A stretch of 64,000 nucleotides of DNA from an uncultured Anaeromyxobacter sp. Lineage in GTDB: Bacteria > Myxococcota > Myxococcia > Myxococcales > Anaeromyxobacteraceae. Made by a program: the position numbers and the translations under genes. The stretch is from the NCBI GenBank assembly GCA_903904005.1, contig CAIVAR010000173.1, positions 1 through 64,000 on the forward strand. The letters are read 5' to 3'. Below the pieces are notes generated by a model, which was given only the letters and a program-made list of their open reading frames with translations, was not told where the DNA came from and did not search any database. This document shows, piece after piece, positions 51,078-64,000 of this stretch. Each line of letters starts with the position of its first letter. The stretch's first letter is position 1.

Positions 51078-52280
51078 CTACCCCTCGGCGTAGGGCTCGA
51101 AGCGCCGGCGCTTGCTCTCGAGCAGCATGTCCTGGAAGGGGTTGTCGTCCCGCCAGACGTCGCCGGCCAAGGTGCTGATGAGGCCGGCGCGGATGGCCGG
51201 GTCGGGGTCCTTCGCGAAGAAGACGTTCTGCACGATGTGGGTCTGGTAGAAGGCGCCGATGAGGCTGCCGAAGGTGGTGTAGGCCCGGGCCATGTGGTCG
51301 GACACCGGACGGGTCAGCTCCGGGTCGGCCTCGCTCCCGGTGCGCAGGGCCGGCACGAGCACGTCGGCGAACCGCTCGCCGGAGAGCATGGCCAGCGACA
51401 CGCCCGACGAGAAGACCGGGTCGAGGAAGAGGGCCGCGTCCCCCAGGCAGGACCAGCGCGGTCCGCGGCTCCTCACGTTCCGGTAGCTGAAGTTCCGGAT
51501 GATGCGGAGCTCGGTGCGCGGGCTGCCGTGGGTGAGCCGCTGCAGCATCGGCGACGCCGCCCAGGTCCGGTCGAAGAGGTCGAGGGTGACCCCCTTCTTG
51601 CGCGTCACCACGCCGACGCTCACCCGTCGCCCGGCGAGCGGGATGATCCAGACCCAGCCGTCCTCGACCACGAGGATGCGGATGCTCCCCTGCCCCTCGT
51701 CGGCCAGCTCCGCCCAGACGGCGTCGGAGAGGTCGTCGAAGTGCCGGAAGACGGCGGCCAGGCCGAAGTCCTCGATCCCGCGGATGGAGCGCCCGCCGTG
51801 ACCGAGGAGCGCGTCCTGCCCGGTGGCGTCGATGGCGTATCGCGCGCGCCTCGGCCCCTGGCTGGTCTGGACGGTCACGCCGGCGTCGTCGGCCTCGATC
51901 CCGGCCACCCGGACGCCGAATTCCACCCGGGCGCCCTCGCGGACGGCCTGGTCGAGGACGTGGGCGTCGAAGCGGGCCCGCTCGACCTGGTAGGCGTGGC
52001 CGGGCGTGCCCGGCAGCCCCTCCGAGAAGTGGAAGCGGGCGTGGTCCCCCGACCGCTCGTCGAAGAACTCGGCCCCCGCCTTGTAGAGGAAGCCCTGGCC
52101 GGCCATGTCCATGCCGAGCCGCTCGAAGAGGGGGAGGTCGCAGGGGAGGAGCGATTCCCCGATGTGGAAGCGGGGGAACGGGTCCTTCTCGAGCACGGCG
52201 ACGTCCACGCCCGCACGGGCGAGCAGCGCAGCCACCGTGGCCCCTCCGGGCCCGGCCCCGACGACGACGACCTCGCTCAC
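51078..52280 (-). CDS. FAD-dependent oxidoreductase, halogenase-like
   Basis: 400 residues; GTG start overlaps the upstream stop (GTGA). Motifs: GAGPGG dinucleotide loop (9-14), FHIGESLLP (39-46), FLYKAGAEFF with K67, and DGWVWIIP, matching W-x-W-x-I-P (W209, W211, I213, P214). The last motif and the conserved Lys are signatures of flavin-dependent halogenases, although relatives of the geranylgeranyl-reductase type share parts. At 400 residues it is shorter than tryptophan halogenases (about 500). Last gene of the aryl-polyene operon, so it may halogenate or oxidise the aryl head. Confidence 0.82.
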   Translation of the reverse strand: MSEVVVVGAGPGGATVAALLARAGVDVAVLEKDPFPRFHIGESLLPCDLPLFERLGMDMAGQGFLYKAGAEFFDERSGDHARFHFSEGLPGTPGHAYQVERARFDAHVLDQAVREGARVEFGVRVAGIEADDAGVTVQTSQGPRRARYAIDATGQDALLGHGGRSIRGIEDFGLAAVFRHFDDLSDAVWAELADEGQGSIRILVVEDGWVWIIPLAGRRVSVGVVTRKKGVTLDLFDRTWAASPMLQRLTHGSPRTELRIIRNFSYRNVRSRGPRWSCLGDAALFLDPVFSSGVSLAMLSGERFADVLVPALRTGSEADPELTRPVSDHMARAYTTFGSLIGAFYQTHIVQNVFFAKDPDPAIRAGLISTLAGDVWRDDNPFQDMLLESKRRRFEPYAEG

Positions 52281-52768
52281 GGGGCGGGCTTCGCCTCGGG
52301 CGCCTTGGTCTCGGACGCCTTCGGGGCCGCGGGCTTGAGCTTCGCGATGGTCCCCTTGAACGCGACCCCGGCGACGGTCGCACCGGCACCGCACATGAAC
52401 TGGGTCTCGCTCTTGAAGGTCTCCTTCTTGTAGTAGCTCTCGATCCCGATGACGGCGTTCCCGCCGGCCTCGCGGGCCCGCTTCTGGAGGTCGATGAGCA
52501 CGCTCAGGAAGACCCACTCGCAGGCCACCCGGTCGGACTTGCCGATCGAGTTGGTCTTGAGGTTCACGATGGTCTCGCCCATCTTCTGGACCACCTCGGG
52601 GTGGGGCGCGCCGCCGAAGTAGAAGGCCACGTCGGAGCGGAGCTTCTCGTTGGCCGCCGGGGTGGTGATGGCGTCCTTGATCGAGAACATCAGCCGATCG
52701 TCGCGCGCCACGCCGGTCGCCGGGATCGCGAGCAGGGTCATCGCCATGGCCGCCAGTGTCGTCTTCAT
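52277..52768 (-). CDS. Small secreted protein, aryl-polyene-associated
   Basis: 163 residues; ATG with GAGGAGA about 7 nt upstream. A signal peptide (MKTTLAAMAMTLLAIPATGVA) is followed by a domain with AREAGGNAVIGIESYYKKETF, which resembles the short YbjQ-like proteins that are sometimes mislabelled as excinuclease subunits. Ends in a Pro/Ala/Lys-rich tail. Similar small proteins occur in aryl-polyene clusters; the function is unknown. Confidence 0.75.
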   Translation of the reverse strand: MKTTLAAMAMTLLAIPATGVARDDRLMFSIKDAITTPAANEKLRSDVAFYFGGAPHPEVVQKMGETIVNLKTNSIGKSDRVACEWVFLSVLIDLQKRAREAGGNAVIGIESYYKKETFKSETQFMCGAGATVAGVAFKGTIAKLKPAAPKASETKAPEAKPAP

Positions 52769-52817: not shown

Positions 52818-53333
52818 TCACCGGGAATCGCAACGGACATCGAGCGTTCGCACCTCGATCCACGGGAGGGTGCGGCCGTCGAGCCGCCAGGTGATCCGCT
52901 CCGGGAAGCGGCAGCCCGCCTCCCCGCCCGGGGCGGAGGTGACGACCTCCCAGCGCCCCACCCGGACCTTCGTCCCGTCCCCGGAGCCCCGGATGTCGCC
53001 GGAGCCGTAGAGCGCCGAGACGTCGCGCAGCAGCGCCTCGACGTCGGACGCGGGCATGGGGAACTCGACGAACCGCTCCTCCACGAAGGCGTCGCCGACC
53101 AGGCGCGCCGAGACGAGGGGCGCCTGGAGGGCGGGGTCGAGGAAGACGACCTCGAAGCGCCCGGGCTCCCGCCACACGCTCGCGAGCAGGGTCTGGTCCC
53201 CCCGCTCCGCGTGGACGGTCACCACCTGCGTGGCGGCGAAGGCGCCAGGGAAGGCGAAGGTGGGCCCGGCGCGCGGGACGGTGGCGCAGGCGGTGAGCAG
53301 CGCCAGCGCGAGGGTCGCCGCTCCCCTCCTCAC
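52818..53333 (-). CDS. DUF3261-like lipoprotein of aryl-polyene cluster
   Basis: 171 residues; GTG start overlaps the exporter stop (GTGA). Lipoprotein signal with LLTACATVP (lipid-modified Cys near residue 15). The mature part is beta-rich (FAATQVVTVHAERGDQTLLASVWREPGRFEVVFLDP), and keeps the size and layout of DUF3261 proteins adjacent to aryl-polyene exporters. Likely outer-membrane, possibly receiving the lipid-linked pigment from the exporter or carrier. 49 nt separate it from the next gene. Confidence 0.8.
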   Translation of the reverse strand: MRRGAATLALALLTACATVPRAGPTFAFPGAFAATQVVTVHAERGDQTLLASVWREPGRFEVVFLDPALQAPLVSARLVGDAFVEERFVEFPMPASDVEALLRDVSALYGSGDIRGSGDGTKVRVGRWEVVTSAPGGEAGCRFPERITWRLDGRTLPWIEVRTLDVRCDSR

Positions 53334-55438
53334 CGGGCGCCTCCGGGGGCCTGGCGCAGCCGGACGAGGAGCGCGAAGGCGAGGGACGGCAGCGCGCCCG
53401 CCACCACGGTCGCCCCCAGCGAGCGGAGGATGGGGTGGCGCGCCAGCATGAGGACCCCGAAGGTGGCCACCGCCGACAACCCGGTCAGGAGGATCTTGGA
53501 GCGCTCGACGTCGCCGTGGTCGGTGGAGACCGCCACCGCGGTGTAGTCGACGGCGATGGCGATGACGAGCGAGAACCCCATGAAGTGGACGATGGTGAGG
53601 GGCGTGCCGGTGAGGCGCGACCAGGCCGCGAACCCGAGGGCCACGGCGAGGACCGGGGCGAACACGTAGAGGATCCGCGCGGCATCGCGCTGGATCCAGG
53701 CCAGGTAGACCACCATGGCCGCGAAACCGGCCAGGAAGAGCCAGCCGAGCTGGCGCGAGAGGTCGGTGAGGAGGGCGTCGTAGTGGGTCCGCGGCCCGAG
53801 CGGCACGAGCCCCCGGGCGGCGAGGTCCGGTGGTACCCGCCGCAGGCCGGCGTGGACGAAGCGCCGGCCCCCCACCTCGTCCGACCAGCGGAGCGGACCG
53901 GCCTCGCCGAGAAGCCCGAGGTATTCCCACTCCCCGAGCCGGCGGCCGGGCGGTGTCCCGACGATCTCGAGACGGAGTCCTTCACCCTCCGTGATTCGCG
54001 CGAGCAGGCTCCGGGCCCCGTCCCAGCGGGCGCGGAGGGCGGCCAGGGTGGCCTCCTGCGCCGCGGGGTCCCGGAAGCGCGCCAGGGGATGGTCGTCCCA
54101 GGCGAGGAGCCCCTCGGCGGCCAGCGGCCGGAGCGCCTCCGACGGGGAGCCGGGAGCGGGGACGGCCACGACGTCGCCGAGCGCGGCCGCGTCGAGCCGG
54201 CGCGAGAAGTGATCCACCTCCCGCCCCAGGGCCGCCGACTGGTAGCGGAACGCGTCGATCCGGGTCTCCACCCGGGGCGGACCGACGAGGAGCAGGCCCG
54301 CCGCCGACGCGCCGCAGATTGCGCCCGGGAGCCAGCGGGGCGCCGTCCAGCCCGGAAGCGGAACGATCCGGAAGCGGATCCCGTCCACCGTGCGGCGGTA
54401 GGGCACGAGGAAGACCAGGAAGGCGAGGAGCCCGGCGATGGAGGCGATCGACATCTGCCGGACGAGCACCGACCGGCCGAGCAGCATCACCGCCATCCCG
54501 AGCAGCGTGGTGCCGATGGCGGACCAGACCCCGACGAGCGTTCGGGCCCGGCGCCCCTCCTCGATGCCCGACAGGTGCACGAGCGACTCGGTGTTGAAGC
54601 TCACGAAGGTGGACGTGTAGACCAGCACCACCGCGAAGATCTCGGCGTAGAAGACCCGGATGGCGAGCACGCCGGCGAGGTAGGAAACGAGCGACCCCAC
54701 CGCCAGCAGCCAGAGGAGCACCCACCGCCGGGTGAACCAGACGAAGAGCCCCAGCGTGAGCAGGAGGGTGAGCGTGGAGCAGACGAGGACGTCGCGCCGG
54801 ACGGCGCGGTAGTTCTCGACCGCGAAGAAGTCGGCACCGATGTAGTGGACGCGGGGGGAGAGCGCGGCGAGCGCCTCCTCGACCTTCTCCACGTCCGCGT
54901 AGACGAGCGGGCGCGGGCTCTCGTAGACGCGGGGCGGCGCGCCCCCGCCTCCGCCTTCCCCACCCTTCCCGGAACCGAGGAACCGGCCGACCAGCGCCGG
55001 CCCGACGCCCAGCGGGTCGACCTCCAGCTGGCGCAGCACCTCCCCACCGCCGGGGAGCGCCGCCACGGCCAGGATCTCGGCGGCGCGGCGGCGCAGGGCC
55101 TCCTCGGCGGCGAGCCCCTCGATCGTCTCGACGGGGAGCTGCGAGGCGAGGTCGAGCAGCCGGGTCGGGTCGGGAATGGCGAGGAGGGAGACCTCCCGGT
55201 AGCCGGCCCGCGCGAGGACGTCCGCGAGCCGTGCCTGCTCGCCCGGGGCGAGCCCGCCCATCTCGACGAAGATCCGGCCCCGGAACGGGCTGCGCTCCTG
55301 GTAGCGGTCGAAGAGCGCCGCGGCCACCGGGTCGGCCATGGCGAGCGACCGGATGGGATCGTCCTCGAGCCGGAACGAACGCTCCACCGCGAACGCCAGC
55401 GCGGCGATGGCCGCGGCCACGAGGAGGTTGCGCTTCAC
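53330..55438 (-). CDS. MMPL/RND-type exporter of aryl-polyene cluster
   Basis: 702 residues. The N-terminus has one membrane helix and a large periplasmic loop (about 30-220). A bundle follows (LTLLLTLGLFVWFTRRW, VLLWLLAVGSLVSYLAGVLAI, IFAVVLVYTSTFVSFNTESLVHL), a second loop, and the C-terminal bundle (FLAGFAAMVVYLAWI, ILYVFAPVLAVALGFAAW, VHFMGFSLVIAIAVDYTAVAV). The topology is the MMPL form of RND proteins. It probably moves the acyl-linked polyene out of the inner membrane with the LolA-like carrier, whose gene overlaps by 4 nt. Confidence 0.9.
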   Translation of the reverse strand: MKRNLLVAAAIAALAFAVERSFRLEDDPIRSLAMADPVAAALFDRYQERSPFRGRIFVEMGGLAPGEQARLADVLARAGYREVSLLAIPDPTRLLDLASQLPVETIEGLAAEEALRRRAAEILAVAALPGGGEVLRQLEVDPLGVGPALVGRFLGSGKGGEGGGGGAPPRVYESPRPLVYADVEKVEEALAALSPRVHYIGADFFAVENYRAVRRDVLVCSTLTLLLTLGLFVWFTRRWVLLWLLAVGSLVSYLAGVLAIRVFYAEIFAVVLVYTSTFVSFNTESLVHLSGIEEGRRARTLVGVWSAIGTTLLGMAVMLLGRSVLVRQMSIASIAGLLAFLVFLVPYRRTVDGIRFRIVPLPGWTAPRWLPGAICGASAAGLLLVGPPRVETRIDAFRYQSAALGREVDHFSRRLDAAALGDVVAVPAPGSPSEALRPLAAEGLLAWDDHPLARFRDPAAQEATLAALRARWDGARSLLARITEGEGLRLEIVGTPPGRRLGEWEYLGLLGEAGPLRWSDEVGGRRFVHAGLRRVPPDLAARGLVPLGPRTHYDALLTDLSRQLGWLFLAGFAAMVVYLAWIQRDAARILYVFAPVLAVALGFAAWSRLTGTPLTIVHFMGFSLVIAIAVDYTAVAVSTDHGDVERSKILLTGLSAVATFGVLMLARHPILRSLGATVVAGALPSLAFALLVRLRQAPGGAR

Positions 55439-55992
55439 CGGACCCGCTCGACCCGCTGGAACTCGAGCCGCGTGGTCTCGGAGGGGCTCTCGAGCTCGAT
55501 GCGGCGAACCTCGAGGTCGTCCCCGAAGACCAGCCGGACCTTCTTCACCATGGAGAGGCTCGACCCGGCCCGCGGCGTGGCGACCACCTCGCGCGGGCCC
55601 CAGGCGAGCACGAAGTCACCCTCCAGGGCCGGGAGGTCGAAGGCGGCGAGGGCCCGGAGGAAGCGGACCAGCGCGGCGAAGCGGGGGTCGCGCGCCTGCG
55701 CCCCCAGGTCCCGCGCAGCGCCGCCGGAGAGGACCTGCACCCGGTCCCCCTCGATGACGACGGTGGAGGGGACGGGGTCGAGCGTCTCCCACTCCACCCG
55801 TGCCGGCGTCCAGCGCAGCCGGACGTGGCTCGTGAGCGGCCGCGCCCAGTACCGCCCCTCCTTGGTCTGGACCACCTCGGCCGTGAGGGAGCGCGCGCCG
55901 GCGTGGCGGGCCTGCAGCGCCTCCGGCGTCAGGGTGGCCGGAGCCGCGGGGGCCGCGAGGAGCATCGCGGCCATGGCTGCGGCGGCAATCAC
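55435..55992 (-). CDS. LolA-like outer-membrane lipoprotein carrier
   Basis: 185 residues with a signal peptide (AAAAMAAMLLAAPAAPATL). Beta-rich with LTAEVVQTKEGRYWARPLTSHVRLRWTPARVEWETLDPVPSTVVIEGDRVQVLSG, the LolA-like half-barrel pattern. In aryl-polyene and flexirubin clusters such carriers are thought to ferry the lipid-linked product across the periplasm. Overlaps the exporter by 4 nt (ATGA) and the thioesterase by 4 nt. Confidence 0.87.
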   Translation of the reverse strand: MIAAAAMAAMLLAAPAAPATLTPEALQARHAGARSLTAEVVQTKEGRYWARPLTSHVRLRWTPARVEWETLDPVPSTVVIEGDRVQVLSGGAARDLGAQARDPRFAALVRFLRALAAFDLPALEGDFVLAWGPREVVATPRAGSSLSMVKKVRLVFGDDLEVRRIELESPSETTRLEFQRVERVR

Positions 55993-56435
55993 CCGCCCGC
56001 CCCTCGCACCGGCGGGGCCCGCAGCCGCTCCAGGATGGCGTCGGGCGTGGCCATGCAGAGCTCCGCCTGGTGCGTCAGCGTGACGAGGCTGGTCCGGGCG
56101 GTGGCCACGCGCTTGCCGGTGGCGACGTCGCAGAGCTCGTAGACCATGTCGATGCGGCTCTCGTCGCCGTCGATCCAGCAGGTGACCCGCACCACGTCGC
56201 CGTAGCGGAGCGGGGCGAGGTGGCGGACGCGGGTCTCGGCGACGACGAAGGCGAAGCCGAGCGCCTGCATGTCGGAGAGGTCGAGCCGGTGCTCGCGCAG
56301 GAAGGCGCCCTGGGCGGCCTCGAGGTACTCGATGTAGCGCCCGTGCCAGACGATGCGCAGGAAGTCGATGTGGTGGAAGGGGACGCGGATCTCCACCCGG
56401 GTGGCCCCGGCGGGCGGCTCGGGATAGCGGCTCAT
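55989..56435 (-). CDS. Hotdog-fold acyl-CoA/acyl-ACP thioesterase
   Basis: 148 residues, 4-hydroxybenzoyl-CoA thioesterase type: VEIRVPFHHIDFLRIVWHGRYIEYLEAAQGAFL. The Asp in HHIDF corresponds to the usual catalytic Asp (motif D-x-x-x-x-x-x-H). It probably releases or edits aryl-polyene intermediates. Overlaps its neighbours by 4 nt on each side. Confidence 0.92.
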   Translation of the reverse strand: MSRYPEPPAGATRVEIRVPFHHIDFLRIVWHGRYIEYLEAAQGAFLREHRLDLSDMQALGFAFVVAETRVRHLAPLRYGDVVRVTCWIDGDESRIDMVYELCDVATGKRVATARTSLVTLTHQAELCMATPDAILERLRAPPVRGAGG

Positions 56436-57979
56436 GGCTCCCCCGCCTCTCCCACGGGGATCCGGCCGTCGGCCAGGCGGGCGATCACCTCCCGGATGTC
56501 GGCATCCATGGCCCGGTCGGCATCGACCACCGGGATGGAGTCCCGTACCGCGGCGAGCACCTCCCGCGTGCGCGGCCGGCAGGAGTCCGCCCCGCGCAGG
56601 TCGGCCGCCTGGCAGGCGACGAGCAGCCCGATGGCCAGGACCCGCTCGGAGAGCTCGAGGACCCGCAGCGCGTCGCGGGCCGCGATGGTCCCCATCGAGA
56701 CCTTGTCCTGGTTGTGGCACTCGGTGGAGCGGCTGAAGGAGGCGGCCGGCATGGTGAGCTTGAGCGCCTCGGCGGTGAGCGCCGACGCGGAGATCTGCAT
56801 CGCCTTGAAGGCGTGGTGGGCGTGACGGTCGGGGCCGGTGCGTGCGACCAGGTTGGCGGGCAGGCCGTTGCTCGTGGCCGGGTTGCAGACGAGCGCCACC
56901 TGCCGGTCGAGCAGGTCGGCGATGCTCGCCACGGCCGCCTTGAGCCCGTCCATGGCGAAGGCCACGTGCCCGCCGTAGAAGTTGCCGCCGTGCAGGACGT
57001 CGCCGGTGTCGGGATCGACGAGCGGGTTGTCGCTCGCGCCGTTCACCTCGATCTCGAGCGTCCGGCGCATGGCGGGCAGGGCGTCGAGCAGCACGCCGAT
57101 CACATGGGGCGCGCAGCGGATGGAGTAGCGGTCCTGCACCCGCGCGCCGGGCGGCCTCGCCCCCGGGCCGCCCGCGAGGTGCTCCCGGATCCAGCGGGCG
57201 CAGAGCGCCTGCCCGGGATGGGGCTTCCAGGCGAAGATGCGGGCGTCGAAGTGGCCCGGCTCTCCGAGGAGCACGTCGCTCGCCATGGCCGTCACGGTGG
57301 CCGAGGCGCGGGCGAGCCGCCGGGCCCGGTCGAAGGCGAGGCAGCCGAGCGCGGCCATGACGCTCGTCCCGTTCATGATCGAGAGGCTCTCCTTGGGCTC
57401 GAGCGGGAGCGGCGCGAGGCCGGCGGCGGCGAGCGCCCGGGCGGCCGGGACCACCTCCCCGCGAAAGCGAACCTCCCGCTCCCCCATGACCACCGCGGCG
57501 AGGTAGGAGAGCGGCGTCAGGTCGCCGCTCGCGCCGACCGAACCTTCCGAGGGGATCACCGGGAGGATCCCGTGGGCGAGCAGCGCGCAGAGCCGTTCCA
57601 GGAGTTCCACCCGGACGCCGGAGTGCCCGCCTGCCAGCGTGGCCAGCCGGACGACGACGACGGCGGCCGACTCCTCGTCGGCGAGGGGTTGCCCGGTCCC
57701 GCAACCGTGGAAGCGGACCAGGTTGGCGGCCATCGCCGCCGCCTCGCCCTCCCCCACCTCGTTCTCGCAGGAGTCCCCGAAGCCGGTCGTGACCCCGTAG
57801 ACCCGGTCGCCCCGCGCCACCGACCTTCGCACGTGCTCGGCGCTTCGCCGCAACCGGTCGCGGAAGGCGGGATCGGGGTCGAGCTCGGGAACGGCGGCGC
57901 CCCGCGCGAGGCACAGCACGTCGTCGATCGAGAGCGGCTCTCGGCCGACCAGCCGGGTGGGACTCTGGCGCTGGGTCAT
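56432..57979 (-). CDS. Aromatic amino-acid ammonia-lyase (HAL/PAL/TAL family)
   Basis: 515 residues. The MIO-forming triad Ala-Ser-Gly is at 150-152 (GSVGASGDLTPL), the catalytic Tyr61 is in YGVTTGFG, and CNPATSNGLPAN and EIEVNGASDNPL are further active-site motifs. The selectivity pair is F90-H91 (VRFHGCGTG), against Ser-His in HAL, His-Leu in TAL and Phe-Leu in PAL, so the preferred amino acid is uncertain. In this operon it would supply a cinnamate or coumarate starter to the polyene, as TAL does in flexirubin clusters. Confidence 0.93.
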   Translation of the reverse strand: MTQRQSPTRLVGREPLSIDDVLCLARGAAVPELDPDPAFRDRLRRSAEHVRRSVARGDRVYGVTTGFGDSCENEVGEGEAAAMAANLVRFHGCGTGQPLADEESAAVVVVRLATLAGGHSGVRVELLERLCALLAHGILPVIPSEGSVGASGDLTPLSYLAAVVMGEREVRFRGEVVPAARALAAAGLAPLPLEPKESLSIMNGTSVMAALGCLAFDRARRLARASATVTAMASDVLLGEPGHFDARIFAWKPHPGQALCARWIREHLAGGPGARPPGARVQDRYSIRCAPHVIGVLLDALPAMRRTLEIEVNGASDNPLVDPDTGDVLHGGNFYGGHVAFAMDGLKAAVASIADLLDRQVALVCNPATSNGLPANLVARTGPDRHAHHAFKAMQISASALTAEALKLTMPAASFSRSTECHNQDKVSMGTIAARDALRVLELSERVLAIGLLVACQAADLRGADSCRPRTREVLAAVRDSIPVVDADRAMDADIREVIARLADGRIPVGEAGEP

Positions 57980-58872
57980 CGCTCTGGACTCCAGAAATCG
58001 TAGAAGTTGAACCAATTGCAAGGGGCCGCGCGGCAGAGTGCCTCGAGCCTCGTGGCGTAGGCCTGGACGTGGCGGGCGAGGGCCTCCTCGCGGGCGCCGC
58101 GCGGAAGCTCGATCCGGTCCGCGAAGGGCTCGATGTGGAGGTCGTAGCGGTCCGGTTCCCGGTAGATCCCGAAGGCCAGGTAGACGGGGCAGCGCAGGAC
58201 CGCGGCGAGCAGGTACGGCCCGGTCGGGAACGAGGCGCGCCCGCCGAGGAAGTCGGCGTCCGCCCGCTTGCCGTCCGAGCCCACCCGGTCGCCCATGGTG
58301 GCGACGATGCCCCCGGCCGAGATGCGATCCTCGACCGCCAGCACGAAGGGGGCTCCCTCCTCGATCTGGATGAGGTCCTGGTCGACCGCGGGATTGATGC
58401 GGCGGAGCGCCTCCGTGATCATCCGGGCGTTCCGGAAGTCGCCGATGGCGGAGACGCGGACGCCGCGCACGGCGGACCAGGCGCGCATGCCGTCGTAGCT
58501 GCCGAGGTGGGAGAGGACCAGGATGGCGCCTCGCCCGGCGACCCGGATCCGCTCGAAGTGCTCCTCGCCCGTGGAGGTGATGCGGAACGGCCGGAGGTCT
58601 CCGCGCGCCAGGAAGAGCCGGTCGAGGGCGACCCGGGCGAATGTGCGAACGTGCCGGTGGACCTCGCGGAGTCCGACCGGACCGGGCAGCACGCGCCGGA
58701 GGTAGCCCGCCGAGGCGCGCCGGACGTCGGCGTGGAGGAGCACGAACCACCAGGTGATGGGGACGAGGAGCAGCCGGGCCACCCGGCGCCCCAGGCTCGT
58801 CGCGACGAGGACGAGGATGGCGATGCCCGTCGCCCCGCCCTTCTCGCCCACCTCCTGCCAGCCCGCGCTCAT
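57976..58872 (-). CDS. LpxL/HtrB-like acyltransferase
   Basis: 298 residues, one N-terminal hydrophobic segment (IAILVLVATSLGRRVARLLLVPITWWFVLL). The H-x4-D catalytic pair is H122 and D127 (LSHLGSYDGM). The rest fits lysophospholipid/lipid A acyltransferases of the LpxL family. In aryl-polyene clusters such proteins are proposed to attach the polyene to a lipid. ATGA overlap with both neighbours. Confidence 0.9.
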   Translation of the reverse strand: MSAGWQEVGEKGGATGIAILVLVATSLGRRVARLLLVPITWWFVLLHADVRRASAGYLRRVLPGPVGLREVHRHVRTFARVALDRLFLARGDLRPFRITSTGEEHFERIRVAGRGAILVLSHLGSYDGMRAWSAVRGVRVSAIGDFRNARMITEALRRINPAVDQDLIQIEEGAPFVLAVEDRISAGGIVATMGDRVGSDGKRADADFLGGRASFPTGPYLLAAVLRCPVYLAFGIYREPDRYDLHIEPFADRIELPRGAREEALARHVQAYATRLEALCRAAPCNWFNFYDFWSPER

Positions 58873-59603
58873 CGCCGCCCCAGCCCGCGGAAGGTGAGCA
58901 GCCGGAGGACGGCGAGCGTGCAGAGCCGGGTGTGCCCCCAGCTGATGCGCACGTTGTCGCGGAACATCCGGAAGTGGGAGACGCCGCCCTGCTCCGCCGA
59001 GAGGTAGCGGACCTGGGTCGGGAGGTTCACCACCGGACAACCACCCCAGACCATGCGGACGGCGATCTCGGGATCGAAGTCCATGCGATCCCCGCGCGCC
59101 CCGGCCGCGAGCGCCGCCTCGACCGGGTAGACGCGGAAGCCGCAGAGCGGATCGGCGATGACCCGCCCGCCCGTCTCCAGCGTGGTCCAGAAGATGCTCA
59201 CCTTCCGGCCGCGCAGCCGCCCCGGAGGAACCGACGCGTCGAAGACCGGCTGCCCGAGCACGAGCGCGCGGGGGGCCGCCCGCGCGGCCTCGAGGAAGCG
59301 CGGGACGTCACCGAGTTCGTGCTGCCCGTCGGCGTCGACCTGCAGCGCGTGGGTGAAGCCGAGCTCACGGGCGGCGGCGAGGCCGGTCTTCACGGCCGCT
59401 CCCTTCCCCCGGTTCCGGTCGTGCCGGCGCAGGACGGCGACACCCCGCGCCGCGAGCCCGTCGAGCACGTCGCGGGCCGGGCCGGTGCTGCCGTCGTCGA
59501 CCACCACCACGGCGGGCAGGTGGCGGCCGAGCGCCTCGACGACGGCGCCCACCGTCCGCGGGTTGTCGAACGTGGGGACGACGGCGCAGGCCCGGAAGGT
59601 CAC
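58869..59603 (-). CDS. Family 2 glycosyltransferase
   Basis: 244 residues; GTG start overlaps the upstream stop. GT-A fold: AVVPTFDNPRTVGAVVEAL, VVVVDDGSTG, and VDADGQHELGD with the metal-binding DxD. Mid-length family 2 enzymes of this kind accompany aryl-polyene synthesis. The C-terminus (RISWGHTRLCTLAVLRLLTF) may be membrane associated. Attachment of a sugar or of a glycerol-like head to the pigment is inferred, not shown. Confidence 0.92.
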   Translation of the reverse strand: MTFRACAVVPTFDNPRTVGAVVEALGRHLPAVVVVDDGSTGPARDVLDGLAARGVAVLRRHDRNRGKGAAVKTGLAAARELGFTHALQVDADGQHELGDVPRFLEAARAAPRALVLGQPVFDASVPPGRLRGRKVSIFWTTLETGGRVIADPLCGFRVYPVEAALAAGARGDRMDFDPEIAVRMVWGGCPVVNLPTQVRYLSAEQGGVSHFRMFRDNVRISWGHTRLCTLAVLRLLTFRGLGRR

Positions 59604-61228
59604 GGGGCCGCTCCGAGGTCGAAGCGCCCCGACGAGCAGGGCTCCCCCCCGCAGGTGATCTGGAACTCCAGGCGGGCCTCGCCGGCCGGCCGGGAGATCC
59701 GCACCGCCAGCGTCTCCCCGGGACGGATGAGCCGCTGGAACTTGAGGCGGCGGATCCGGACCGGGTCGCCGAGGTCGGGCCAGCGCCGGCGGGCGGGTCG
59801 GAGGACGAGCTCGAGAAGCTGGACCACGCCGGGGAGCACCGGGAATCCCTCGAAGTGCCCCTCGAACCAGGGGGCAGCGGAATCGTCCAGTTCGTGGTCG
59901 AACGCGAGCGTGTCCCCCTCCGGCGCCAGCACCGCGAGGAGCCGGTCCCGCGGGATCTTCCCGGTGCTCTCCCGCGGCAGCGCCTCCACCAGCCGGATCC
60001 GGCGGGGCAGCGTGACCGGATCGAGCCAGGCGAGGAGGCCGGACCGGATCGCCGCCTCGTCGAGCCCCGGCGCCACCACCGCCGCCCGGAGCTCCACCTC
60101 CCGCATCCCGGGCGAGGGAACCGCCATCACCGCGGCGTCGCGGACCCCGGGCAGGGAGAGCAGCCGCGCCTCCACCTCGGCGAGGGCGATCCGCTTCCCG
60201 CCCACCTTGATCACGCCGTCGGCGCGGCCGAGGAGCCGGAAGGCCCCTCCCGCGGCCGGCTCGGCCAGGTCGCCCGGGACGAACGGCCGCGGCGCGCCCG
60301 GGGGGAGGAAGGGGGACTCGACCTGGAGCCGCCCGTCGTCGCCGATGGCCACCTCCACCCCGGGGAAGGGGATCCAGGGTCCGTCGGCCTCGCCCCGGTG
60401 GGCGACGCCGCCGGTCTCGGTCGACCCGTAGATCTCGACGACGGAGAGGCCGAGGCGGGAGGCGAGCCGGCCGCGGACGTCGGAGGCGAGCGCGCCGCCG
60501 GAGCAGAAGGCCCGCTCGAGCGCCGGCAGGGCGTCGAGCACGAGCAGTCCGTGGAGATGGGCCGGGCTCGACACGAGGTGGGTCGCGCCCGCGGAGCGCA
60601 GCGCGGCGGCGACCTCCTCGGCGTGAAGCGGGCTCCTGCGCCCGAGTGCTCCCCCGGCGGCGAGCGGCGCGAGCACGCCGAAGAGGAGGCCGTAGATGTG
60701 GTGCGCCGGGACCGTGGCGACGACGCGCGCGCCGGGCCGGATGGCGAAGAGGCGCGGCAGCAGGAGGGCCTCGCCGAGGATCTGGCCGGCGGTCTTGGGG
60801 TAGCGCTGGGGCGCTCCGGTCGAGCCCGACGTCCACAGCGTGACGAGGTGTCGCCCCTCCGCGACCTCCGGGAACGCGACGGCCCCTGCGGGACCCTCGA
60901 GCAGCGAGCGGAGGTCCACGCCGTCCACCGCGCCGGCCCGGTCGTGGAGAAGCACGCCCGACGCTGAGCCCCGGACGGCGGCGCGAACCGCCTCGTCCTG
61001 GCCGTTGGGCGGGAGCGCCACCGGTCGGCCGGCCATCCAGGATCCGAGCAGCGCGGCGGCCGCGTGGTAGCGGTCCTCGCAGGCGAGGGTGAGCTCTCCA
61101 GGCGGGAACCGCTCGAGCGCGCGGGCGATGCGCCCGGCGTCCGCGAGCAGGTCGGCTGCGCTCCGCTCGCCCCCCTCGCCGAAGGCGACGGGATCGGCGG
61201 ACCGGTGCGGGACGAGCGCCCGGATCAC
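59600..61228 (-). CDS. AMP-ligase fused to FabZ-like hotdog dehydratase
   Basis: 542 residues. Residues 1-425 are an ANL ligase: LWTSGSTGAPQRYPKT (P-loop), IYGSTETGGVAHRG, LLGRADGVIKVGGKRIALAEVE and the ESTGKIPRDRLL catalytic Lys. From about 440 a hotdog domain follows with HFEGFPVLPGVVQLLEL, the FabZ/ApeI active-site His and motif. The ligase should load an aryl acid (from the ammonia-lyase) onto an ACP; the hotdog domain should dehydrate the 3-hydroxyacyl. In better-known clusters these are separate genes. Overlaps its neighbours by 4 nt. Confidence 0.9.
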   Translation of the reverse strand: MIRALVPHRSADPVAFGEGGERSAADLLADAGRIARALERFPPGELTLACEDRYHAAAALLGSWMAGRPVALPPNGQDEAVRAAVRGSASGVLLHDRAGAVDGVDLRSLLEGPAGAVAFPEVAEGRHLVTLWTSGSTGAPQRYPKTAGQILGEALLLPRLFAIRPGARVVATVPAHHIYGLLFGVLAPLAAGGALGRRSPLHAEEVAAALRSAGATHLVSSPAHLHGLLVLDALPALERAFCSGGALASDVRGRLASRLGLSVVEIYGSTETGGVAHRGEADGPWIPFPGVEVAIGDDGRLQVESPFLPPGAPRPFVPGDLAEPAAGGAFRLLGRADGVIKVGGKRIALAEVEARLLSLPGVRDAAVMAVPSPGMREVELRAAVVAPGLDEAAIRSGLLAWLDPVTLPRRIRLVEALPRESTGKIPRDRLLAVLAPEGDTLAFDHELDDSAAPWFEGHFEGFPVLPGVVQLLELVLRPARRRWPDLGDPVRIRRLKFQRLIRPGETLAVRISRPAGEARLEFQITCGGEPCSSGRFDLGAAP

Positions 61229-61845
61229 GGGGCTGCCCCCGGCGAGGGCGGGAACTTCATCCGCCGGACGAGGAACTCGGCAGCGAACAGGATCCCCATG
61301 AGGACGTAGGCCACTGCGCCCGTGTAGAGCGCCCAGAGCCCCTGCCGGCCGGAGAGGGCGAGCACGGCCGCCACCGCGCCGTTGGCGACGAAGAAGGCGC
61401 ACCAGACCCAGGTGACGGTCCGGCAGTAGGCCACCTCGGCGGGAGACAGTTCGGGCTTCTGCAGGCGTGCGAAGCCCTCCACGATGGACCGCCCTCCACG
61501 CAGCGAGACGAGGAACGCGACGAGCAGCGCGCCGCTCACCAGCACCGGCCAGGCGAGCAGGAAGCGGCCGTCGTCGAGCACCGCCGCGGCCACCGCCACC
61601 GCCACCGCTCCCCCCGCGAGGTAGAGCGAGCGTCGCCCCGCCGCCCGCTCCCCCCGGGCGGCGCGGAAGATGCCGGGGAGCAGGAGCAGGACGACGATCG
61701 CGGCGGTCCAGCGCGTTCCCACCAGGCGCGAGCCGCCGATGACGACGAAGGGCCAGGCCACCATCGCGAGGGCCTGGAGGAGCCCGGGCAGGGTCCGGAG
61801 CAGGCGGCCTCCACGGCCGAGGGGTGGGCGGCTCGCGTCGCGCAT
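61225..61845 (-). CDS. Polytopic membrane protein of aryl-polyene cluster (COG4648-like)
   Basis: 206 residues with six or so membrane segments (LLQALAMVAWPFVVIGG, AAIVVLLLLPGIF, LAGGAVAVAVAAAVL, FLLAWPVLVSGALLVAFLVS, VTWVWCAFFVANGAVAAVLAL, LYTGAVAYVLMGILFAAEFLV). The ending V-R-R-x-K-F after the last helix resembles COG4648 membrane proteins of aryl-polyene clusters. Role unproven. Its ATG shares one nucleotide with the upstream TGA. Confidence 0.75.
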   Translation of the reverse strand: MRDASRPPLGRGGRLLRTLPGLLQALAMVAWPFVVIGGSRLVGTRWTAAIVVLLLLPGIFRAARGERAAGRRSLYLAGGAVAVAVAAAVLDDGRFLLAWPVLVSGALLVAFLVSLRGGRSIVEGFARLQKPELSPAEVAYCRTVTWVWCAFFVANGAVAAVLALSGRQGLWALYTGAVAYVLMGILFAAEFLVRRMKFPPSPGAAP

Positions 61846-63200
61846 CACGCCACCGAGAGCCACTCCCAGAGCGGGCCGGCCCGACCCCGCTCGTGCAGGT
61901 AGGCCACCTGGTCCTGGACCCGCTGGGCACCGTCCCCGACCACCCAGGCCGGGCGGGTCGCCGCGTGGCGCGACACGCGCTCGACGATGGCGTCGAGCCC
62001 GATGGCCGCGGGGCGGTAGTACGTCGGCTCGAGCAGCGGGGCGGCGGGATCGACCTGCCCCTCCTCGACCGCCCGGCTCCAGAGCCCGGTCCCCGGGTAG
62101 ATGCGCATGCCGCAGAAGACGAAGAGCGGCGCCCCGTCGAGTTCCTCCGCCGCGGCGAGGGTCTCCTCGACCGTCTCCGCCGTCTCGCCCGGGCCACCGA
62201 AGAGGAGGAAATGGGCGACGTGGACTCCCGCCGCGCGGGCCGCCCGGTGGGCGGCGAGCACGTCGCCCTTCCGGAACGACTTGCCGATGCGGGGGAGCAT
62301 CGGGTCGGAGAGGGACTCGGTTCCGAACTCGACGTGGGACAGCCCTGCCGCCGCCAGCCGCTCGTAGAATCCGGCGGGCGGCGCGGTCGGGGCGAAGAAG
62401 GCGCTCCAGGGGACGGCAACGCCGGCGGCGCGGAAGGCGTCGGCGATCGCCAGGCAATGCTCGGGGTGCGCGTTGAAGACCGAGTCGGTGATGGCGAGGT
62501 ACCTCGCCCCTGCGTCCTGGAGCCGGCGGGCCCTATCGGCCGCCGACACCGCGTCGAAGAGGCGCGAGCGGCTTCCCTCGATGGCCGGGTAGGTGCAGTA
62601 GGTGCACCGGAACGGGCAGCCGCGCTGGGTCTGGAGATTCAGGATCCCGCCGTGGGCCAGGTACCAGCCGAGCGCGGGGTTGAGCCCCGGGGCGGCCGGC
62701 CCGCGCGGATCGATGCCGCGCGCCGGCGCCGGAAGCGATCCTCCGGGCGCGACGACGCCGGGCACCCCCTGGGGGCTCCGCCCCGCCTCGATCGCCTCGA
62801 AGAGCGGGGCGCAGGCCTCGCCCTCTCCGAGGAACCCCCAGTCGGCCCCGGTCACACGGAGGAGTTCCCGCGGGAAGAGCGCGAAGCCCGCCCCCCCGAG
62901 CACCACCGGGGCGGAGGTGGCCCCGCGGATCGCCGCCACCGCGTCGCGGACGTCCCCGGCGAACCCTCGCTGCGCGGTGAAGTCGGTGCTGTCGACGTTG
63001 CGGACCGAGATGCCCACCGCATCCGGGACGAACTCCCGGACGGCCGCCTCGAGCGCCCCTCCTCCCGGCTCCCCCGGGCAGAGATCGACGATGCGCACGT
63101 CGTGGCCCGGGGCGAGGGCCGCCGCCACGTGGTCGAGTCCGAGGGGATAGACGGGGTACGGGTGGCGCACCCGGTTGATCGAGACGAGCAGGACTCTCAC
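61845..63200 (-). CDS. B12-binding-domain-like radical SAM protein
   Basis: 451 residues. Residues 1-150 form a Rossmann-like domain as in cobalamin-binding radical SAM proteins (MRVLLVSINRVRHPYPVYPLG, VVLGGAGFALFP), but no D-x-H-x-x-G cobalt-ligand His is visible. The 4Fe-4S cluster motif is C195, C199, C202 (CPFRCTYC). A TIM-barrel follows with HFLLFGGPGETAETVEETL. It could methylate or otherwise modify a sp2 carbon of the polyene or lipid. Such a gene is unusual in an aryl-polyene operon; target unknown. Confidence 0.9.
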   Translation of the reverse strand: MRVLLVSINRVRHPYPVYPLGLDHVAAALAPGHDVRIVDLCPGEPGGGALEAAVREFVPDAVGISVRNVDSTDFTAQRGFAGDVRDAVAAIRGATSAPVVLGGAGFALFPRELLRVTGADWGFLGEGEACAPLFEAIEAGRSPQGVPGVVAPGGSLPAPARGIDPRGPAAPGLNPALGWYLAHGGILNLQTQRGCPFRCTYCTYPAIEGSRSRLFDAVSAADRARRLQDAGARYLAITDSVFNAHPEHCLAIADAFRAAGVAVPWSAFFAPTAPPAGFYERLAAAGLSHVEFGTESLSDPMLPRIGKSFRKGDVLAAHRAARAAGVHVAHFLLFGGPGETAETVEETLAAAEELDGAPLFVFCGMRIYPGTGLWSRAVEEGQVDPAAPLLEPTYYRPAAIGLDAIVERVSRHAATRPAWVVGDGAQRVQDQVAYLHERGRAGPLWEWLSVA

Positions 63201-63469
63201 GGGGTCGGCGGGGCGCCGTTCGGATCCTCGGCGAGGTGGCTCTCGACCAGGGAGACGATGTCGCCCACGGTGCGGACCTTCCGCAGCCCCTCCTCGGCCA
63301 CGCGCCGGCCGGTGAGCCGCTGCAGCTCCACGACGAGATCGATGGCGTCGAGGCTCGTGAGCTTCAGGTCCTCGAACTTCGACTCCGGCGTGATCGTGGC
63401 CGGGTCGAGGTCGAACAGCTCGACCATCGTCTGCGTCACCTTCTGGAGGATCATCTCGCGCGTCATCAT
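63197..63469 (-). CDS. Acyl carrier protein 2
   Basis: 90 residues, four-helix ACP. The phosphopantetheine Ser is S39 in LKLTSLDAIDLVVEL. Sequence DxSL is replaced by TSL, still consistent with loading. ATG overlaps the upstream ACP stop (ATGA); a second ATG 3 nt later is possible. The pathway has two ACPs in tandem, as in aryl-polyene systems where one may carry the starter and the other the growing chain. Confidence 0.92.
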   Translation of the reverse strand: MMTREMILQKVTQTMVELFDLDPATITPESKFEDLKLTSLDAIDLVVELQRLTGRRVAEEGLRKVRTVGDIVSLVESHLAEDPNGAPPTP

Positions 63470-63738
63470 GTCGGGCTCGGGGGCTGTCGGTTGCGGGAGA
63501 CGAACCCGGCCAGGCTCCGGATGCTGCCGAAGACCTCGCGGTTCGCTGCGTTGCTGGCCTCGAACTTCACGCCGTAGCGCTTCCGGAGCGCCATGGCGAG
63601 TTCCAGGGCGTCGATCGAGTCGAGGCCGAGCCCCTCTCCGAACAGCGGCGCCTCGGACTGGATGCTCTCGGGCGTGACCCCCTCGAGCTTCAGGCTCTCG
63701 ACGATGAGCCCCTTGATCTCGCGCTCCAGCTCTTCCAT
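63466..63738 (-). CDS. Acyl carrier protein 1
   Basis: 90 residues with the ACP motif GLDSIDALEL (S41 is the phosphopantetheine site). Acidic helix I (EELEREIKGLIVESLKLEG). The ATG lies 7 nt after the stop of the upstream acyltransferase gene, so co-transcription is likely. Confidence 0.94.
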   Translation of the reverse strand: MEELEREIKGLIVESLKLEGVTPESIQSEAPLFGEGLGLDSIDALELAMALRKRYGVKFEASNAANREVFGSIRSLAGFVSRNRQPPSPT

Positions 63739-63745
63739 TCCGTCC

Positions 63746-64000
63746 TCAGCTCCCGGTGGGCTCGTACCCGAGCGCCTGCAGGTAGACCCCCCGGAGCCGG
63801 CCGGCAAGGTCGGTCGGGGCGGGGCCGGGCAGGCAGGGTCGGGTCAAGAGTTCGATGGTCATCCGCGCCGTCTCCGGCGGTACGTCGTACCACGCGTCGC
63901 CCCGCTTGAGCGTGGGAGGCTCGCAGCGAACGAGCAGGGGCACCACCGGGACCCCGGCGCGGGCCGCGATCTGGAAGGCCCCGGCGTGGAAGTTCCCCAG
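63746..64000 (-). CDS. PlsC-type acyltransferase, 5' end outside window (partial)
   Basis: The last 84 codons of a longer gene. The remaining segment begins LGNFHAGAFQIAARAGVPVVPLLVRCEPP, the conserved IAxxAGVPVVPV region of 1-acylglycerol-phosphate acyltransferases (after the NHxxxxD and EGTRS motifs, which would lie off the edge). It resembles ApeJ/ApeK-type acyltransferases placed next to ACPs. It is probably the entry to the rest of the cluster on the right. Confidence 0.85.
   Translation of the reverse strand: MGNFHAGAFQIAARAGVPVVPLLVRCEPPTLKRGDAWYDVPPETARMTIELLTRPCLPGPAPTDLAGRLRGVYLQALGYEPTGS

Follow-up and report, generated by a model that had tools for sequence, protein, structure and literature searches.

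We found an intact gene for a predicted class-1 cobalamin-dependent radical-SAM protein inside what reads as a complete aryl polyene (APE) gene cluster of an uncultured Anaeromyxobacter sp. The cluster lies at the end of the stretch of DNA analyzed here, called the window (64,000 nucleotides; positions 1 to 64,000 of contig CAIVAR010000173.1). The best reading of the gene is that it supplies an optional, add-on tailoring step, and we tentatively lean toward C-methylation of the polyene. What is new is the association of such a protein with APE clusters that carry an aromatic ammonia-lyase, together with an active site that is half like that of TsrM. A literature search returned no paper combining polyene, radical SAM, cobalamin, and acyl carrier protein (ACP), although the link may still be published.

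An intact radical-SAM gene with a cobalamin-binding domain

The open reading frame runs from 63200 to 61845 on the minus strand and encodes 451 amino acids from a GTG start, with no internal stop. By direct reading of the sequence, this start codon overlaps the stop codon of the upstream ACP gene, falling within the final codons of the second ACP, and the terminal TGA overlaps the start codon (ATG) of the gene that follows. The gene is intact, real, and in the right place. Pfam profiles matched a B12-binding domain at residues 14 to 129 (PF02310; E = 2.3e-15) and a radical-SAM domain at residues 191 to 349 (PF04055; E = 1.1e-18). A CX3CX2C motif (C195, C199, and C202) is present, its cysteines shared by all 26 aligned sequences, and the protein contains no DxHxxG cobalamin ligand motif, reading D39-L-C-P-G-E after strand 2. 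An earlier sequence-only reading of this DNA had named the same three cysteines of a radical-SAM protein and a cobalamin-binding-like domain lacking DxHxxG; it was exact on the first point and agrees with the PF02310 match on the second. Both Pfam and model superposition place an N-terminal Rossmann B12 domain before radical-SAM and C-terminal domains, the arrangement of class 1. Assignment to this class is well supported by sequence and predicted structure, and use of cobalamin, a 4Fe-4S cluster, and SAM is predicted. Radical-SAM domains occur at 36 places in the same genome (E 0.001), just one of which matches the NCBIfam family TIGR04072 at E 1e-60.

A divergent relative of TIGR04072

The best NCBIfam match was to TIGR04072 (rSAM_ladder_B12, "lipid biosynthesis"), at 352 bits, 8 below the curated cutoff of 360 bits. 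Because this match spans the full length of the protein with an E value of 4e-105, it is not due to chance. Three relatives do pass the cutoff (L093, L091, and L095, with 388, 391, and 372 bits), and the window protein sits in a 14-row clade (support, 100/100) of which several rows pass it. By sequence, the protein is a somewhat divergent relative of a known family rather than an orphan. The family is named after ladderane-type clusters, and our literature search gave no assigned reaction for any member. The window protein shares with TIGR04072 the same two domains, the RN and DxxFN signatures, and a type II fatty-acid/polyketide context; however, it belongs to a distinct lyase-linked clade, and its expected product is an aryl polyene, not a ladderane. 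Identity is 49 to 50% with relatives from Syntrophus and a Desulfobacteraceae genome, 35 to 36% with those from Desulfuromonadales, and 32% with that of the anammox bacterium Jettenia.

The next profiles were BzaD (TIGR04385; 121.8 bits, cutoff 450) and the TsrM type (TIGR04428; 121.5 bits, cutoff 500), both short of their cutoffs. BzaD methylates its substrate on the ring. The enzyme belongs to the benzimidazole pathway of lower-ligand biosynthesis, where it is called a methyltransferase (PMC8123684); although it is among the nearest profiles, the window protein has a polyene cluster as its context. A search for BzaD as a tree outgroup matched 0 of 146 Desulfuromonadia genomes at E 1e-100, a result that, coming without a positive control, is silent on absence.

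A TsrM-like cobalt site with an iron predicted to be open to SAM

The AlphaFold model, built on 26 sequences (mean pLDDT 91.8), superposes on TsrM (6wtf) over its whole length (Z 38.1; 2.4 Å over 448 residues; Foldseek TMq 0.86). TsrM is by far the nearest solved structure and is also the best by sequence; superposition on OxsB, CysS, and TokK covers 406 to 418 residues. With TsrM residue numbers counted from its pairwise alignment with the window protein, Arg67 corresponds to TsrM Arg69, beneath the cobalt. This arginine is invariant in 26 of 26 aligned sequences and was found in 12/12 family members versus 1/40 other B12/radical-SAM proteins, the latter being 40 of 73 non-family loci (33 omitted). 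In TsrM, Arg69 blocks the lower face of the cobalt, and an arginine there would stabilize cob(I)alamin (PMC13331322). TsrM is also reported to make no radical because its Glu273 ligates the cluster iron (PMC8992657). In the window protein, Val241 stands where TsrM has this SAM-blocking glutamate (Glu in 1 of 26 aligned sequences), so the iron should be open to SAM and radical chemistry should be possible. Taken together, Arg67 and Val241 suggest that the cobalt site of the window protein is like that of TsrM, whereas its iron is accessible to SAM. The window protein resembles TsrM, a tryptophan 2-C-methyltransferase, in its whole-chain fold, its CX3CX2C motif, the arginine beneath the cobalt, and the absence of a His ligand; it differs in lacking the Glu273 iron ligand, in its shorter chain, and in its context, which is a polyene cluster rather than a thiopeptide cluster.

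The RN and DxxFN signatures are common to all clades aligned. We considered Asp73 as a substrate marker, since the lyase-linked clades A, A2, and B (described below) have Asp and clades C and D have Thr at this position, and rejected it because the pattern follows the tree. Solitary family members and L127 also have Asp, and the residue provides no independent evidence.

The surrounding aryl polyene cluster

The cluster runs beyond the window end to about 69.4 kb on the same 92-kb contig. Its minus-strand run is tightly packed. It opens with AcpS, an acyltransferase (PF01553; 3' part at 63746..64000, whole gene at L009:3746-4519, past the window end), and two PP-binding proteins matched by Pfam, ACP 1 (63466..63738) and ACP 2 (63197..63466), followed by the radical-SAM gene. 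Next come a 206-amino-acid membrane-like protein (61225..61845), an AMP-binding ligase (59600..61225), a family 2 glycosyltransferase (GT2; 58869..59600), a lipid A acyltransferase-like (LpxL-like) protein (PF03279; 57976..58872), and an aromatic amino-acid ammonia-lyase (PF00221, 540.9 bits; 56432..57979) with an ASG motif in its sequence. The run continues with a 4HBT thioesterase (55989..56435), a LolA-like protein (55435..55983), a large RND/MMPL-like membrane exporter (53330..55438), a lipoprotein where E. coli has ApeN (DUF3261; 52818..53330), a small secreted protein (52277..52768), and a tryptophan-halogenase-type flavoprotein (PF04820; 51078..52280). Upstream of the acyltransferase, AcpS is followed by a divergent plus-strand run of ketosynthase (KS), chain-length factor (CLF), ApeP-type dehydratase, ketoreductase (KR), and KS genes (L009:4519-9367, AcpS included). 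Six of these names were given by position or look only: the membrane-like protein (in the place of E. coli ApeG), the LolA-like protein, the exporter, the lipoprotein, and the small protein, none of which had a Pfam match, and the KR, which was assigned outside the Pfam scan from the look of its sequence and its conserved context. The sequence-only reading had placed the radical-SAM gene between the ACP genes and the ligase; this is right on the ACP side, but the membrane-like gene intervenes before the ligase.

The locus holds the KS, CLF, ApeP-type dehydratase, KR, two ACPs, and acyl ligase of an aryl polyene cluster. Compared with the E. coli gene table for apeA-R (PMC8253772), it reads as a complete APE-type cluster to which the lyase and the radical-SAM gene have been added. 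Both have two ACPs, an acyl-ACP ligase, glycosyltransferase and acyltransferase genes, a thioesterase, Lol/RND-type export genes, KS, CLF, KR, and dehydratase. That table includes ApeB, a class-I methyltransferase, and lists neither a radical-SAM enzyme nor an aromatic lyase, whereas the window cluster adds both of these, along with AcpS and the flavin halogenase-like gene. The lyase is the probable source of the aryl starter, and the probable product of the cluster is an aryl polyene, a yellow pigment bound to the membrane. No cobalamin riboswitch was detected at the gathering threshold near the operon in L009, L114, L121, L122, or L131. Two minor features were also seen: the ligase has a C-terminal dehydratase-like (hot-dog) part, as though E. 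coli ApeH and ApeI were fused, and tblastn with the small secreted protein also finds relatives that end APE clusters lacking the radical-SAM gene.

Optional presence in aryl polyene clusters

In the window's phylum, 19 of 195 genomes match TIGR04072 (E 1e-60), and 58 of 195 have an ApeP-type dehydratase. The radical-SAM gene was found in all 3 ApeP genomes of family f1 (plus one incomplete genome with radical-SAM fragments beside polyene genes) and in all 4 of family f8. Among the Myxococcales APE genomes of family f6, the clade A gene was found in 0 of 42, and the same APE core was present where clusters were read. Since otherwise equal APE clusters lack the gene, a role in tailoring rather than in building the polyene is indicated. 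The tailoring step proposed by the sequence-only reading thus stands as the best reading, but the protein is not wholly new, since it belongs with TIGR04072. Genomes with clade A or A2 members had ApeP in 9/13 cases versus 49/182 for the others (Fisher P = 0.003, uncorrected for relatedness). Beyond the phylum, members (E 1e-60) were found in 125 of 194 genomes in the class to which the Desulfuromonadales genome L015 belongs and in 35 of 62 genomes in the anammox order of L013, both counts including solitary members.

Genomic contexts were read by tblastn with the proteins of the window's cluster. Clade A consists of Myxococcales aryl polyene clusters, with the lyase wherever the sequence read is long enough and the radical-SAM gene is inside the cluster. 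Clade A2 consists of polyene clusters from another family, with the lyase within 10 kb in 3 of 5 (L112, L117, and L123). Clade B comprises Desulfuromonadia clusters with lyase, GT2, LpxL, ACP, KS, and two radical-SAM genes. The window lyase gave no tblastn match in the clusters of clade C (Desulfuromonadia) or in the anammox fatty-acid clusters of clade D. A tree of 45 rows joins the window protein with A, A2, and two syntrophic relatives (100/100) and places B as their sister (97/92); C and D lie on another branch (C+D node, 80/23). L127, from an aryl polyene cluster, falls long-branched on the C/D side, so the split by context is imperfect. L016 was in the 26-sequence alignment and left out of the tree; the contig-end fragments L130 and L131 were in neither. 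Polyene-cluster genes lie within 10 kb at 12 of the 14 clade A and A2 places. With this synteny and optional presence, together with the profiles and the model, the broader claim of the sequence-only reading, that a radical-SAM enzyme with a 4Fe-4S cluster and a cobalamin domain without the His ligand acts in a polyene operon, is well supported.

Several relatives have further genes beside the radical-SAM gene. A polysaccharide deacetylase-like gene adjoins it at L121:10633-11500 (+), L122, L130, L114, L119, and L112:10681-11529 (with a Pfam match for L112); no deacetylase was found among the Pfam-scanned proteins of the window cluster. Together with GT2 and the LpxL-like acyltransferase, the deacetylase-like gene may tie these polyenes to an amino-sugar lipid. 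In genome G159, a radical-SAM gene of the same clade (L118:9296-10660) lies away from polyene genes, while a different contig of that genome carries ApeP and other APE genes. Four lyase-bearing Desulfuromonadia clusters (L014, L015, L220, and L221) have two adjacent B12/radical-SAM-like genes, a TIGR04072 member and a neighbor 21 to 24% identical to it, so that a single product could undergo two radical steps in succession.

Candidate reactions

Most of the class-1 enzymes known so far are methylases. Those closest in fold and profile, TsrM (acting on indole) and BzaD, act on aromatic carbons. In E. coli, methylation of the APE head group is attributed to ApeB, and methyl groups are known from some APE head groups (PMC8253772). 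For these reasons, and because the arginine beneath the cobalt favors cob(I)alamin, C-methylation is our first choice: we tentatively read the window protein, with slightly less than even confidence, as a B12-dependent C-methylase of the aryl polyene, of its ring before its chain. What the data show are the gene, its domains and motif, the model fold, the cluster, the family, and the optional presence; the cofactor loading, the methylation, and its site, timing, and carrier are inferred. Cob(I)alamin, with no lower ligand, would sit above Arg67 and be methylated by one SAM. Another SAM would bind at the open iron of the C195/C199/C202 cluster to give a 5'-deoxyadenosyl radical, and methylcobalamin would pass its methyl group to a carbon of the aryl polyene, at a best guess a ring carbon next to the phenol oxygen. 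The product would be a methylated head group like that made in E. coli through the class-I enzyme ApeB, formed here by another type of enzyme. A carrier-bound substrate would have precedent, as CysS and TokK act on carrier-type (pantetheinylated) substrates according to structure entry titles and, for CysS, PMC12846815.

We rejected strict replacement of ApeB by the radical-SAM enzyme as a rule. In the window cluster, neither a motif scan nor Pfam searches with 20 proteins of the cluster region turned up a class-I methyltransferase; the f6 APE clusters without the radical-SAM gene likewise had none by motif scan, so no swap is seen. Three relatives carry both, with a class-I methyltransferase motif adjoining the radical-SAM gene in L113, L117, and L123 (Pfam check for L113); the two enzyme types are therefore not exclusive. 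The motif was a regular expression that may miss divergent enzymes; it was applied to L013 and gave nothing there, while Pfam found methyltransferases in the related anammox locus L235.

Counting against a ring substrate as a family-wide rule, relatives occur in anammox fatty-acid clusters, and Jettenia, the one anammox genome searched, had no aromatic lyase; an aryl ring may therefore not be the substrate of the whole family. The supposed product of the anammox cluster has no aryl group, which would favor a polyene-directed step. Such a step is the core of the main rival, unlikely but substantive, in which the enzyme forms a ring or cross-link or rearranges the polyene chain, as B12/radical-SAM enzymes have been proposed to do in making ladderane cyclobutanes (PMC13142503, PMC2649909). 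Consistent with it, clusters with and without the lyase would have a polyene substrate in common, the RN and DxxFN signatures run through all clades aligned, and the neighbors of family members in anammox fatty-acid clusters include SPASM radical-SAM, ketosynthase, methyltransferase, and phytoene-desaturase-like flavoprotein genes. The naming of the family after ladderane-type clusters points the same way. However, the window protein groups with the lyase-linked clades, and its arginine under the cobalt is TsrM-like and missing from the BchE/HpnJ-type relatives L018 and L027. The anammox sequences fall elsewhere, although the branch that unites them with the lyase-less Desulfuromonadia has weak support (80/23). 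Moreover, Rattray 2009 favors Kuste2803 as the cyclase and detected no ladderanes in Desulfotalea, which shares the clusters (PMC2649909).

Quite unlikely is a modification of the lipid or sugar anchor instead of the polyene. The deacetylase-like genes adjoining the radical-SAM gene in L112, L114, L119, L121, L122, and L130, and the GT2 and LpxL-like genes in clusters of several clades, fit this idea; nevertheless, the window cluster has no deacetylase among its scanned proteins, APE clusters without the radical-SAM gene carry the same GT2 and LpxL genes, and the enzymes with the nearest solved structures have small aromatics, antibiotics, or proteins as substrates. Finally, a TsrM-like enzyme working without radicals, or a role unrelated to the pigment, would agree with the TsrM fold and Arg69 equivalent and with the separate gene of G159 (L118), but it is very unlikely given the missing Glu273, the overlap of the gene with both neighbors, and the proximity to polyene genes at 12 of 14 clade A and A2 places.

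Relation to ladderane-type clusters

"Ladderane" clusters in Myxococcota and Desulfobacterota are described in PMC9902471 as having no known function. Our comparison suggests that some of these are aryl polyene clusters with a B12 tailoring enzyme. For the anammox and Desulfotalea clusters, Rattray 2009 lists B12 and other radical-SAM genes and suggests Kuste2803 as the cyclase (PMC2649909). The genes of L235 come in an order (a gene that looks deacetylase-like, KS genes, methyltransferase, SPASM radical-SAM, TIGR04072 member, KR, ACP, and amine-oxidase-like) that resembles the Kuste3352-3335 operon as presented there. This likeness makes Kuste3342 or Kuste3343, rather than Kuste2803, the probable counterpart of the TIGR04072 member of L235.

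We consider it improbable that the whole TIGR04072 family performs one B12/SAM radical step, carbon-carbon ring closure, on ACP-bound polyenes. If ring closure did apply here, the pigment cluster would make a cyclized aryl polyene and offer a color-coded, non-anammox stand-in for the ladderane ring-forming step. How ladderane rings are made is an unsolved problem, and this enzyme type is otherwise met in anammox bacteria, which are hard to grow. With a pigment as the expected product, the reaction could be followed by color and mass shift after deletion of a single gene.

Further relatives were observed in other settings. Lyase-less Desulfuromonadia lipid clusters (L222-L230) contain further radical-SAM-matching regions beside one ACP and KS genes. 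Solitary TIGR04072-like proteins with the RN and DxxFN signatures (5 of the 7 examined) occur outside lipid clusters (L231-L234 and L237-L239).
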